Source: an uncultured Rubrobacteraceae bacterium
GTDB lineage: Bacteria; Actinomycetota; Rubrobacteria; Rubrobacterales; Rubrobacteraceae
Reading direction: 5' to 3'
Assembly: GCA_902806105.1 (NCBI GenBank)
Contig: CADCVI010000004.1
Span: 1 to 18,578, forward strand
DNA length: 18,578 bases
The notes under the pieces were generated by a model that saw nothing but the letters and a program-made list of their open reading frames with translations, ran no database searches and was not told the DNA's origin. Below, piece by piece: positions 12,098 to 17,495 of this stretch (position 1 is its first letter; every line of letters starts with the position of its first letter). The position numbers were made by a program, and so were the translations under genes.

Positions 12098-13756
12098 TTA
12101 CACCTCTACGATTAGGGGCAGGATGATCGGGCGCTTGCGCGTCTTCTCCGTGAGGAAGCCGGCGAGGTCCTTGCGGATAGCCTTCTTCAGCTCGCTCCAG
12201 TCCGTGACGCTGCGCTGCGCGGTGCGCTCCAGGGTCTTCGTGACTACCTTAATGGAGTCGTCGACGAGGCCGTTCTGGGAGGCTTGATCCACGAAGCCGC
12301 GGCTGATGACGTCCGGCGGCCCGAGCAGTTCGCCCGACTTCGAGTTGATGCGCGCGACGACTATGAACATGCCCTCCTCCGAGAGCTGCTGGCGCTCGCG
12401 CATGATCGACTCGGAGTTGTCCGCAACACTCCCGGCGTCCACGAGGAACATGCCGCTCGAGACGGGGTCGAGCTTCTTCGCCGCACCCGCCTTGAACTCG
12501 ATCGGCTCCCCGTTCTCCAGGATAAACACGTCGTCGGCAGGGATGCCCATGGAGATCGCCGTATCCTTGTGGTGCTTCTGCATCCTGTACTCGCCGTGGA
12601 CCGGGACGAGAAACTTCGGCTTGAGGAGCGAGAGCACGATCTTCTGCTCTTCCTGCGCCGCGTGGCCGGAGACGTGAACCCTGTGAAGCGGCGAATAGAG
12701 CACGTCGGCGCCCCGCTTCATCAGGCTGTTGATGGTGCGCGAGACGCCCCGCTCGTTCCCCGGGATGGGGTGGGCGGAGACGATCACGACGTCGCCCGGA
12801 CCCGCCTCGATGGTGCGGTGCTGCCCCGCGGCGATGCGGGAGAGCGCGGCCATCGGCTCGCCCTGCGAACCCGTAGTCAGGATCACGATGTCCGAGTCCG
12901 GGACCTTGTTTATGTCCCGCTGGTCCACGTACATCGACTGCGGAAGGTCCATGTAGCCGAGATCCCGCGCGATCTGCACGTTGCGGATCATGGAACGGCC
13001 CGTGACGCCGACGAGACGACCGTGCGCCTTTGCTGCCTCGACCACCTGGTTGACGCGGTGGATGTGGCTCGCGAACGAGGCGACGATGATGCGGCCCTTC
13101 GTCCGCTCGAAGACCTGGTTGAAGGTCTCGTTGACTACCCGCTCGGACGGCACGAAGCCGGGCCGCTCGGAGTTCGTCGAGTCGCCGAAGTACGCGAGGA
13201 CGCCCTCCTGCCCGAGCATCGCGAAGCGGTTCAGGTCCATCGGCTCGCCCTCTATGGGCGTGAGGTCGATCTTGTAGTCGCCGCTGAAGACGATGAGACC
13301 CGCGTTGGTGCGCAGGGCGACCGCCACGGCGTCAGGGATGGAGTGGTTGACGTTGACGAACTCCATGCCGAAGCCGCCGAGCTTCATCTTGTCGCCGGCC
13401 TTGATCTCCCTGAGATCACCCTTCTTTATGCCGTGCTCGGCGAGCTTGGGCCGCACGAGCCCCAGGGTGAGCTTCGTCCCGTACACGGGGACGTTGAACT
13501 CCCGCAGGATGTACGGCAGGGCGCCCACGTGGTCCTCGTGGCCGTGCGTGAGGATGATGCCCTTGAGCTCGTTTCGGTGCTCCCTCAGATAAGAAAAATC
13601 CGGGAGGACGAGGTCTATCCCCGGCATCTCCTCATCCGGGAAAGACATGCCGGCGTCCACGAGAACGATGCCGCTCTCCTGTCGCACGGCGGTCATGTTT
13701 TTGCCGATCTCCCCCAGTCCTCCTAGTGGGATGACCTGCAGTGTATTGCTATCCAA
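12098..13756 (-). CDS. rnj: Ribonuclease J (beta-CASP metallo-RNase)
   Basis: 552 residues, typical length. RNase J is a zinc-dependent 5'-3' exonuclease and endonuclease acting in mRNA decay and rRNA maturation. Seen: a metallo-beta-lactamase fold with the PLGGLGEIGKN start (10-20), HGHEDH (71-76), H138 in NVNHSIPDA, and the SGDYKID region with D160. The beta-CASP insert covers about 205-370 (SFASHIHRV, TTGSQGEP, SAHPIPGNE, HVSGHA). The last metal histidine, H387, is in PVHGEYRMQKHH, and a C-terminal domain covers about 450-552. The start is TTG 13756, 12 nt after AGGAGG (13774-13769), a long spacing. This start gives the normal number of residues before IPLGG. A perfect stem-loop sits 3 nt upstream of the ribosome site. 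Only one RNase J gene is in view, so J1 versus J2 cannot be assigned. Confidence 0.96.
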   Translation of the reverse strand: MDSNTLQVIPLGGLGEIGKNMTAVRQESGIVLVDAGMSFPDEEMPGIDLVLPDFSYLREHRNELKGIILTHGHEDHVGALPYILREFNVPVYGTKLTLGLVRPKLAEHGIKKGDLREIKAGDKMKLGGFGMEFVNVNHSIPDAVAVALRTNAGLIVFSGDYKIDLTPIEGEPMDLNRFAMLGQEGVLAYFGDSTNSERPGFVPSERVVNETFNQVFERTKGRIIVASFASHIHRVNQVVEAAKAHGRLVGVTGRSMIRNVQIARDLGYMDLPQSMYVDQRDINKVPDSDIVILTTGSQGEPMAALSRIAAGQHRTIEAGPGDVVIVSAHPIPGNERGVSRTINSLMKRGADVLYSPLHRVHVSGHAAQEEQKIVLSLLKPKFLVPVHGEYRMQKHHKDTAISMGIPADDVFILENGEPIEFKAGAAKKLDPVSSGMFLVDAGSVADNSESIMRERQQLSEEGMFIVVARINSKSGELLGPPDVISRGFVDQASQNGLVDDSIKVVTKTLERTAQRSVTDWSELKKAIRKDLAGFLTEKTRKRPIILPLIVEV

Positions 13757-13777
13757 TTTGGTTGCTTACCTCCTCTA

Positions 13778-13827
13778 AAACATCCCGGCCGGCCAGCGAG
13801 AATAAAGGCTGGCCGGCCGGGATGTTT
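13778..13827 (-). promoter_or_regulatory. Perfect 20-bp stem-loop in the rnj leader (attenuator, terminator or RNase target)
   Basis: AAACATCCCGGCCGGCCAGC (13778-13797 on the plus strand) is the exact reverse complement of 13808-13827; the loop is ten AT-rich bases (13798-13807). Each arm also contains the self-palindrome GGCCGGCC. In RNA from the minus strand, the 3' arm ends in UUUU, then AG and the AGGAGG ribosome site. It starts 21 nt after the M16 peptidase stop (13849). The 21 nt between stem and rnj start cannot hold a promoter and I see no good one just upstream, so rnj transcripts probably read through it. Attenuation or cleavage by RNase J/RNase III are inferences. Confidence 0.85.
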
Positions 13828-13848
13828 AGTTCCTTTTGCTTTCGATGT

Positions 13849-15111
13849 TTATGCGGCGAGGTACCTGCCAAGATCGAGCTCCTTCGGCCCGACGGCGGAG
13901 AGGTACATGTCTTCCCTCTTGAGGTGCTGGTTGGCGAGGCGCTTGAGGTCTTCGGCCGTGACGGCGTCGATGCGCCTGGCTATCTCGTCGGGCGTCAGAA
14001 GCTCGGAGCCGGTGATCAAGCTGCGGCCTATGCGCGTCATGCGCGCCGCGGTGCTCTCCAGAGCGAGGATCGTCGAGCTCTTGAGCTGCTCCTTGGTCCG
14101 GTGGAGCTCCTCCTCGGTGACGGTCTCCTCCCGAACCCTGTCGAGCTGCTCGGCGATGATGCTCACCGCCTCCTCGACGTTCCCGGTGGTGGAACCGACG
14201 TACATCTTCACGGCGCCCGCGTCGGAGTAGCCCTGATGATACGAGTACACGGCGTAGGCGAGCCCGCGCTTCTCCCGAACCTCCTGAAAGAGCCGGCTGG
14301 ACATCCCGCCGCCGAGCACGTTGTTCAGGGCGAGCATCGCGTACCGATCGTCGCTGCTCGCCGCTATCCCCTGCGAGCCCATCGCGACGTGGTACTGCTC
14401 CGTCTCCTTGAACTTGTAGAAGAAACGGCTCGCGGGCGGCGTAACCTCGGCCTTCCTCACGAACGGCGTCCCGCTCGGGAGCTTGCTACCGAGCTTCTCC
14501 TCGACCATCTTCTCGAAAGAAGCCGATTCTAGCTTCCCCGCACCCACGACGAAGACGTTCTGGGCCGTGTACGTGTCCTGGTGGAAACCCCTGAGTATCT
14601 CGTGGTCCACGCCGCGCACCGTCTCGGCGGAGCCGATGATCGGGCGGCCCAGAGGGTCGCCGTGAAAGACGAGGCCGGAGAGGTACTCGTCGGCGAGCTG
14701 GTCGGGACGGTCCTCGTACATCCGGATCTCCTCGACGATGACCTCGCGCTCGCGCTCGAGATCCGCGAAGGTCGGGCGCGTGACCATGTCGCTCATGATG
14801 TCCAGGGCGCGCTCGAGGTGCTCGGGGAGGAACCGCGCGTAGAGCACGGTGTACTCCTCCCCCGTCGCCGCGTTCTCCTGGGCGCCTATCCCCTCGAACG
14901 CCTCGGCGATGCCGAGGGCGTCCATGGAGGGCGTGCCCTTGAAGAGCATGTGCTCCATGAGGTGCGTGATACCGGCTACCTCGTCCTTCTCGTCGCGGCT
15001 CCCCGCGCGGATCCAGACTCCCAAAGAGACGCTCGTCGCCTCCGACAGGGGCTCGGAGAAGACCCTGAGGCCCCCCGGAAGCTCCTTCTTGTTCACGTTC
15101 GTCTCGCTCAC
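13849..15111 (-). CDS. M16-family zinc peptidase (YmxG/MlpA-like, processing-peptidase type)
   Basis: 420 residues, the usual size of the single-chain bacterial M16B form. Seen: the inverted zinc motif HLMEHMLFKG (50-59), with ligands H50 and H54 and catalytic E53. The distal acidic ligand is expected at E127/E128 in VIVEEIRMYEDRPDQ. The second half carries the partner-domain signature LGGGMSSRLFQEVREKRGLAY (about 275-296), which contributes the substrate-binding Arg/Tyr. No signal peptide is seen, so it is probably cytoplasmic. GTG 15111 starts 3 nt after the pnp stop, and its GGAGG site lies inside the end of pnp, so translation is coupled. Downstream of pnp is the classical place for this family, as with ymxG in Bacillus. 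Its natural substrate is not known from sequence. Confidence 0.92.
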   Translation of the reverse strand: MSETNVNKKELPGGLRVFSEPLSEATSVSLGVWIRAGSRDEKDEVAGITHLMEHMLFKGTPSMDALGIAEAFEGIGAQENAATGEEYTVLYARFLPEHLERALDIMSDMVTRPTFADLEREREVIVEEIRMYEDRPDQLADEYLSGLVFHGDPLGRPIIGSAETVRGVDHEILRGFHQDTYTAQNVFVVGAGKLESASFEKMVEEKLGSKLPSGTPFVRKAEVTPPASRFFYKFKETEQYHVAMGSQGIAASSDDRYAMLALNNVLGGGMSSRLFQEVREKRGLAYAVYSYHQGYSDAGAVKMYVGSTTGNVEEAVSIIAEQLDRVREETVTEEELHRTKEQLKSSTILALESTAARMTRIGRSLITGSELLTPDEIARRIDAVTAEDLKRLANQHLKREDMYLSAVGPKELDLGRYLAA

Positions 15112-15114
15112 GGG

Positions 15115-17175
<2,061 letters not shown>

Positions 17176-17228: not shown

Positions 17229-17495
17229 CTAGCGGCGCAGACCGAGCCTGGAGATGATCGAACGGTACCGCTCGACATCCTTGCTCTGGAGGTACTTCAA
17301 GAGCCGCCGCCTCTTGCCGACGAGCTTCAAAAGCCCCCGCCTGGAATGGTAGTCGTGCTTGTGCGTACGCAGGTGCTCCGTCAGGTGCCGGATGCGGGTG
17401 GTCAGCACCGCGACCTGAACCTCGGGCGAGCCGGTGTCGCCCTCGTTTACCGCGTACTCCGAAATTATCGCCTCTTTGTTCTCGACAACCGCCAA
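17229..17495 (-). CDS. rpsO: 30S ribosomal protein S15
   Basis: 88 residues, exactly the usual S15 size. S15 binds the central domain of 16S rRNA early in 30S assembly. The family signature is present: [17 protein letters not shown] (19-35), [20 protein letters not shown] (37-56), and [10 protein letters not shown] (61-70). The start is TTG 17495, preceded by AGAGGAGA about 9-10 nt away; no ATG or GTG fits the conserved N-terminus. The gene sits between ribF and pnp, the common order in Gram-positive bacteria, and has its own promoter. The predicted leader is only about 20 nt, too short for the pseudoknot-type S15 autoregulation known in E. coli. Confidence 0.97.

Follow-up and report, generated by a model that had tools for sequence, protein, structure and literature searches.

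Which role could a perfect 20-bp stem-loop play when it lies a few nucleotides in front of the ribosome-binding site of a ribonuclease gene? The question arises at the rnj (RNase J) gene of the window, that is, the whole stretch of 18,578 nucleotides that was analysed. The window is Rubrobacter DNA; the M16 peptidase that it encodes is 92–93% identical to those of the MAG LC5_3 (L001) and Rubrobacter marinus (L002), and its RNase J is 92% identical to that of R. marinus and 95% to that of the MAG LB3_11 (L008), the M16 protein of which is 83% identical. All genes called in the window are on the minus strand, in the order ribF, rpsO (S15), pnp, M16 peptidase, hairpin, rnj, ftsK, rodZ, recA, recX and rny. 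The gene calls and the gap types that result from them are those of our own simple gene caller, not of an annotation, and the names ftsK and rodZ come from NCBIfam matches below the cut-offs. The features of the region are, from rpsO to rnj:

17229-17495, minus strand: rpsO
15115-17175, minus strand: pnp, polynucleotide phosphorylase (NCBIfam PRK11824, 954 bits, above the cut-off)
13849-15111, minus strand: M16 peptidase gene between pnp and rnj, stop codon at 13849-13851 (Pfam PF00675 and PF05193; NCBIfam YfmF/YfmH below the cut-off)
13828-13848, minus strand: 21 A-rich, unpaired nt that separate the M16 stop from the stem (sequence and fold)
13808-13827, minus strand: 5' arm of the hairpin on the coding strand (sequence and inverted-repeat search)
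13798-13807, minus strand: AT-rich loop of 10 nt (sequence and inverted-repeat search)
13778-13797, minus strand: 3' arm of the hairpin, ending in three bases that are the first three U of the UUUU run (sequence and inverted-repeat search)
13777-13780, minus strand: UUUU run closing the GC-rich part of the stem (sequence; 4-5 U within 3 nt of the stem also in L001, L002, L004, L007 and L008)
13769-13774, minus strand: rnj Shine-Dalgarno AGGAGG, predicted to be accessible (sequence; opening cost 1.3 kcal/mol)
13757-13768, minus strand: spacer of 12 nt that opens, in frame with rnj, with a TAA stop (start-codon table)
12098-13756, minus strand: rnj, RNase J, TTG start at 13754-13756 (NCBIfam TIGR00649, 614 bits against a cut-off of 400; Pfam RNase_J_b_CASP and RNase_J_C)

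The first-pass annotation had taken pnp for the immediate neighbour of rnj; the M16 peptidase gene (13849-15111) is directly upstream, and pnp is one gene further up. The stem-loop described in the same annotation, with its perfect 20-bp stem, its AT-rich loop of 10 nt and its position 3 nt before AGGAGG, was confirmed by an inverted-repeat search and by shuffles. The arms at 13778-13797 and 13808-13827 are 100% complementary over 20 bp, the loop between them holds 7 A or T out of 10 nucleotides, and this repeat ranks first among the 12 inverted repeats listed for the window. With loops of 3 to 20 nt, the longest perfect arm was 20 in the window and 8-15 in 200 dinucleotide shuffles of it. The hairpin is the minimum-free-energy fold of the 92-nt M16-rnj gap when the gap only is folded on the coding strand (−45.7 kcal/mol, z −7.3), and a plus-strand fold of 121 nt gave −51.4 kcal/mol (z −4.6). 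Seen from upstream, a stable GC-rich stem of 20 bp follows the M16 stop codon after 21 nt; seen from downstream, AGGAGG lies 12 nt before the TTG of rnj, and the stem 3 nt before AGGAGG. None of 4227 Rfam families matched the hairpin above the gathering threshold, and a standard terminator scan, which requires 5 T among 8 nt and accepts loops of up to 8 nt, left it unlisted.

A block to ribosomes was among the three possible uses of the stem named in the first-pass annotation. We found this use to be unsupported for the window, since opening GGAGG has a predicted cost of 1.3 kcal/mol with or without the hairpin, and burial of the Shine-Dalgarno by the hairpin was thus rejected here. A steric effect of the stem at the edge of the 30S subunit is possible. 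Among the relatives, the opening cost exceeded 5 kcal/mol in 11 of 37 copies (L020, which has no GGAGG, was dropped from the 38). The leaders of L012, L015, L017, L027 and L163 have a second small hairpin beside the stem, in which CCTCC pairs with the rnj Shine-Dalgarno, and their opening costs are 5.1-7.6 kcal/mol. We also looked for a separate rnj promoter, by a sigma-70 scan and by codon homogeneity only. No promoter fits into the 21 nt between the stem and the rnj start, and the sigma-70 scan listed no site near the 3' end of the M16 gene. A promoter or other element embedded in that 3' end was rejected, as the homogeneity of synonymous codons shows no rise at that point (the last two windows of 20 codons in M16 give 0.48 and 0.56, compared with 0.56-0.76 elsewhere).

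We then considered the rnj start codon. The weak TTG start pointed out in the first-pass annotation is real, and the trait extends beyond what had been claimed: in 38 syntenic copies the likely start is CTG in 20, TTG in 15, ATG in 2 (L018 and L026) and GTG in 1 (L155). The distance from AGGAGG is 9 nt for 19 of the 20 CTG starts (5 nt in L023) and 12 nt for 14 of the 15 TTG starts (3 nt in L020). All but five copies (L017, L018, L023, L148 and L155) have an in-frame stop upstream within 12 codons, mostly a TAA or TAG that follows the Shine-Dalgarno immediately; the window's spacer begins with the in-frame TAA, and therefore no rnj start lies further upstream. A GAT/GAC codon in second or third position, which varies synonymously in most copies, argues against a start further on, at the TTG or CTG found at codon +5 in most copies. 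An automatic start pick applied to 35 rnj copies returned 19 CTG, 13 TTG, 1 ATG, 1 GTG and 1 without a pick. The same rule returned no CTG in 27 ribF, 32 rpsO, 31 pnp and 33 M16 genes; for ftsK, which is poorly aligned, it returned 1 CTG and 13 without a pick out of 14. A TTG start by itself is unremarkable, all 32 of the 32 rpsO genes examined having one. CUG is a rare start codon in bacteria, and public gene calls may misplace the rnj start. RNase J in Rubrobacteraceae is predicted to start mostly at CUG or UUG.

To place the hairpin within the operon, every gap of the Rubrobacteraceae loci with the same gene order was folded together with 100 shuffles of the same gap, provided that both genes were present and that the gap measured 30-260 nt. 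The M16-rnj gap reached z<−2 in 20 of 33 loci and z<−3 in 16 of 33. Elsewhere in the operon z<−2 was found in 2/30 ribF-rpsO, 1/31 rpsO-pnp, 1/18 rnj-ftsK and 3/22 ftsK-rodZ gaps; the pnp-M16 gap, foldable in 2 loci with z<−2 in 1, was omitted from this sum. The comparison of 20/33 with the summed 7/101 gives a Fisher p of 7e-10, which treats species as independent and so overstates the significance. In Rubrobacteraceae, structure within this operon is concentrated in the gap between M16 and rnj. In a wider set, z<−2 was found in 23 of 38 rnj gaps, in 12% of 218 codirectional gaps of R. marinus and in 17% of 108 other gaps from rnj loci. When a raw stem score, uncorrected for composition, was used instead, the threshold was reached by 23/38 rnj gaps, 129/218 gaps of the R. 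marinus background and 31/108 other gaps from the same loci; this score does not separate the rnj gaps from the R. marinus background, although it separates them from same-locus gaps. L007, L016 and L021 had poor scores in the gap-only folds despite visible short stems, and the stem of L016 overlaps the M16 stop. The locus L001 has no rnj hit; it was placed by sequence for the wider gap folds, the start-codon table and the Shine-Dalgarno opening costs, and it is absent from the per-gap z comparison (20/33), the stem-type tree and the automatic start picks. In the distant loci L028-L080, an rnj hit was found in 2 of 53 within 5-kb flanks, and M16 followed by rnj within 400 nt in none, so these loci offer no outgroup test.

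If the gap keeps a structure, which part of it is conserved? Absence of the stem from close relatives had been named as an observation that would count against the first-pass interpretation. The picture is mixed, but it is not one of absence: the stem is present in L001, L002 and L008, imperfect in L004 and L007, and L005 has a weak one only. Four leaders can be aligned (window, L001, L002 and L008), and in this alignment standard pairing holds in 92.4% of the cells for the 20 pairs of the window, compared with at most 50% when the pairing is slid. Covariation in the four leaders was limited to one double change (C-G, U.G, U-A), a value reached by 301 of 500 shuffles and hence not above them. 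Beyond these leaders the letters change. L006 has a perfect stem of 21 bp with other letters than the window's, and in many MAGs the stem arms at the same M16-rnj site consist of 7-nt units, TCAGCnn or TCAGGnn. When the stem types were placed on a tree of 37 RNase J proteins, 15 changes were required for 6 classes (minimum 5), the classes and the non-alignability between them having been assigned by eye, and the sister pairs L017/L148, L013/L163 and L025/L027 differ in stem type. Thirteen of the 37 copies were classed as weak or none, including R. taiwanensis, with its gap of 18 nt, and the close relative L005. The stems at the rnj site range from 9 to 40 Watson-Crick pairs; in 23 stems the median distance to GGAGG is 8 nt, and 12 of the 23 lie 0-5 nt from the M16 stop (21 nt in the window). 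G.U mismatches were not in excess over A.C mismatches in the rnj stems (35:26, p 0.31; background gaps 306:263 and 59:41), and therefore we see no sign of selection on the coding-strand RNA. As judged from these sequences, it is the predicted hairpin at the M16-rnj site that recurs in evolution, not its letters.

We asked what kind of hairpin the window stem resembles. In the ten rows nearest to the window (the nine-row clade of the RNase J tree plus L001), 4-5 U lie within 3 nt of the stem in six (window, L001, L002, L004, L007 and L008), L003 and L005 have UUU, and L006 and L019 have no U-run. Further out, L021 has a U-run, and L012, L017, L025 and L136 are among the many without one. A sample of 800 kb from R. 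marinus, comprising 72 convergent, 350 codirectional and 110 divergent gaps of at least 30 nt, contained perfect stems of at least 12 bp in 19 convergent, 25 codirectional and 2 divergent cases, and 11 in coding sequence. Stems in gene sense (n=52, arms of at least 11, within 60 nt of a stop) were followed by at least 4 T in the next 8 nt in 11 cases (21%), compared with 4.3% of random intergenic 8-mers, and A was enriched before the stem. Such a pattern is that of intrinsic terminators with a weak U-run. Among the 15 R. marinus 3' hairpins listed, the stop-to-stem distance is 6-45 nt, into which the 21 nt of the window fit, and by its form and place the window stem appears to belong to this class of long hairpins 3' of genes. 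Only 4 of the 25 codirectional stems end at most 50 nt from the next called start; a stem set against the next ribosome-binding site is therefore uncommon.

The 7-nt-unit palindromes are distributed in a similar way. In a 400-kb sample of the genome G028 they occupied 10/31 convergent, 18/127 codirectional and 1/43 divergent gaps, and of the clusters in stretches of G007 picked around hits, 17 fell into convergent, 23 into codirectional and 2 into divergent gaps. Because both the R. marinus stems and the 7-nt palindromes lie mainly 3' of genes, the GC-type and the 7-nt-type stems at rnj both look like 3'-end hairpins. Dispersed TCAGCnn/TCAGGnn palindromes, mainly 3' of genes, were collected as L184-L203 (G028) and L164-L183 (G007), and the units occur in the M16-rnj gaps of L012, L013, L017, L025, L136 and L163. 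Triple hits of the unit reach 394 (overlapping) in one genome, G028; in a phylum sample, G084, G116, G126 and G146 have 19-73, and any hit was found in 43 of 296 genomes, some of these being simple tandem repeats.

From the hairpin, its place, its recurrence in the family, the turnover of its letters, the U-run in six near relatives, the predicted accessibility of the Shine-Dalgarno and the CTG or TTG start, all of which can be read in the DNA, we infer termination, read-through and a low level of RNase J. We tentatively propose, as a reading with slightly less than an even chance of being right, that a terminator-like 3' hairpin has been set against the rnj ribosome-binding site and acts as a partial attenuator, rnj being expressed by read-through. 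The hairpin would be the intrinsic-terminator-like 3' end of a transcription unit that holds pnp and M16, abutting the rnj ribosome-binding site. RNA polymerase arriving from pnp and M16 would meet a stable stem with UUUU, where a fraction would stop, and the polymerases that read through would yield rnj mRNA. Past the hairpin, an open Shine-Dalgarno and a weak start would be exposed, and the hairpin together with a CUG or UUG start behind a long spacer would keep RNase J low relative to the upstream genes. Recurrence of the hairpin with other letters suggests a partial stop signal that helps to keep RNase J scarce. An attenuator or partial terminator had been one of three uses suggested for the stem-loop, and it is the best supported of them, now that a UUUU closing the GC-rich stem and an R. 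marinus class of hairpins 3' of genes with extra T have been added. Setting the pnp-to-rnj ratio alone, as had been suggested, is not what such a device would do; if there is one transcript, it would set rnj against the whole ribF-rpsO-pnp-M16 unit.

Several observations argue for a partial stop: the concentration of z<−2 in the M16-rnj gap (20/33 versus 7/101 in the other gaps), the position of the long R. marinus stems mainly 3' of genes with T enriched behind them, the window's stop-to-stem distance of 21 nt, which falls within the range of those stems, the 4-5 U within 3 nt of the stem in six near rows, and the 7-nt-unit palindromes of other lineages, which also lie mainly 3' of genes. It is weakened by the missing U-run in 4 of the 10 near rows and in many other lineages, by a wobble ratio without asymmetry (35:26) and covariation not above shuffles, and by the 13/37 copies that are weak or none, with a raw stem score no better than the R. 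marinus background. The title of a work referenced in PMC8355165, according to which the mycobacterial polymerase requires a U-tract, also counts against a partial stop. Distance from the stop codon should matter for termination. As far as the excerpted text of PMC4824070 goes, an E. coli terminator a few bp behind a gene was almost fully repressed and regained strength with distance, which its authors ascribe to ribosome-polymerase coupling. The stem lies 21 nt from the stop in the window and 0-5 nt in 12 of 23 stems; if distance matters, we predict that the stem would indicate how close behind the ribosomes on M16 are.

The main rival of partial termination is a role in RNA processing or stability, which we consider unlikely. 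An endonuclease would cut near the hairpin, and the hairpin would guard either the 3' end of the pnp-M16 message against PNPase or the 5' end of the rnj message against RNase J, in the manner of stabilisers made of a 5' stem-loop and a ribosome-binding site, or of REP elements. A pure barrier of this kind fits a structure that is kept without its letters, the median of 8 nt to GGAGG (23 stems) and the many lineages without a U-run. Stabilisation by a 5' stem-loop and ribosome binding is known for B. subtilis aprE, to judge from a reference title in PMC7509114, and the excerpted text of PMC9312406 describes the M. tuberculosis RNase J as rate-limiting for structured GC-rich RNA. Protection from nucleases nevertheless leaves the U-run of six near relatives unexplained. 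In the B. subtilis aprE leader, as at rnj, a stem is followed by a strong Shine-Dalgarno within a few nucleotides; in contrast to aprE, the rnj stem lies between two genes and is not known to be at a 5' end.

We hold it to be unlikely that the hairpin results from drift, with many intergenic palindromes in Rubrobacter genomes, a short gap that tolerates them and a rnj hairpin without a function of its own. The 7-nt palindromes are indeed dispersed, stem types swap between sister species, wobble asymmetry is lacking and 13/37 copies are weak or missing, all of which fits drift. Yet the other four operon gaps are structured in 7/101 cases compared with 20/33 at M16-rnj, different types of palindrome converge on one site, and palindromes are rare in divergent gaps, so that they are not neutral to gene orientation. 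The dispersed 7-nt units that make up the stems of many relatives recall REP-type and other dispersed intergenic palindromes. In contrast, the arms of the window stem were found on inspection to be free of TCAGCnn/TCAGGnn units, and the pattern of its core has a single occurrence in R. marinus, at rnj, and none in three other genomes.

Feedback by RNase J or RNase III, with the hairpin as a target that limits the enzyme's own mRNA by analogy with RNase III at pnp and RNase E at rne in E. coli, appears improbable; an RNase III-cleaved rpsO-pnp hairpin is a precedent in Streptomyces and E. coli (excerpts of PMC5872136 and PMC10126417) and the structured gap is the one before rnj (20/33) and not rpsO-pnp (1/31), but the stems differ in letters, span 9-40 Watson-Crick pairs and have no evident shared recognition feature beyond the duplex. 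We give equally little credence to a sequence-blind device, in which any strong-enough hairpin before the rnj Shine-Dalgarno and the CUG or UUG start would hold RNase J down and RNase J would read the hairpin and feed back on its own mRNA; only the duplex would then matter, and lineages could therefore swap the stem for a palindrome common in their own genome.

Returning to partial termination, RNase levels need close setting, and the known feedback devices (rne leader, rpsO-pnp hairpin and rny leader) come from a few model bacteria. By analogy, the device that the rnj hairpin of Rubrobacteraceae would resemble most in its working is the rpsO-pnp intercistronic terminator with the RNase III hairpin, known from E. 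coli and Streptomyces coelicolor, where a hairpin of the rpsO-pnp region tunes a downstream gene for an exonuclease of RNA decay; in E. coli, the excerpt of PMC5872136 presents terminator read-through as part of the design. There the hairpin precedes pnp, whereas in Rubrobacteraceae it lies two genes later, before rnj, and rpsO-pnp is structured in 1/31 loci. Intrinsic terminators of Actinobacteria with a weak U-run or none also have a long GC-rich stem shortly after the stop and T mildly enriched behind; in M. tuberculosis, according to the excerpt of PMC8355165, the U trail is absent or mixed with A in nearly 90% of such structures. Unlike these terminators, the rnj hairpin stands within what appears to be one operon, with the next Shine-Dalgarno 3 nt away. 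A literature search, mostly without subscription papers, returned among the matches listed no title that deals with RNase J in Rubrobacter, with a hairpin in an rnj leader, with Rubrobacter terminators or with RNase J starting at CUG. One actinobacterial family appears to place a hairpin before rnj instead of pnp, the structure being kept while the sequence is exchanged, and the roughly two dozen stems at one site (23/38 gaps with z<−2) form a natural series for the structure and the stop-codon distance needed in partial termination.

Finally, L157 (G003), L158 (G032) and L162 (G019) each have a further RNase J gene, with about 76-78% identity to that of the window. These second copies, which were excluded from the gap and start-codon counts, have no M16 gene upstream and a different leader, and the leaders of L157 and L158 have the stretch GCCGATCGCTGG in common.
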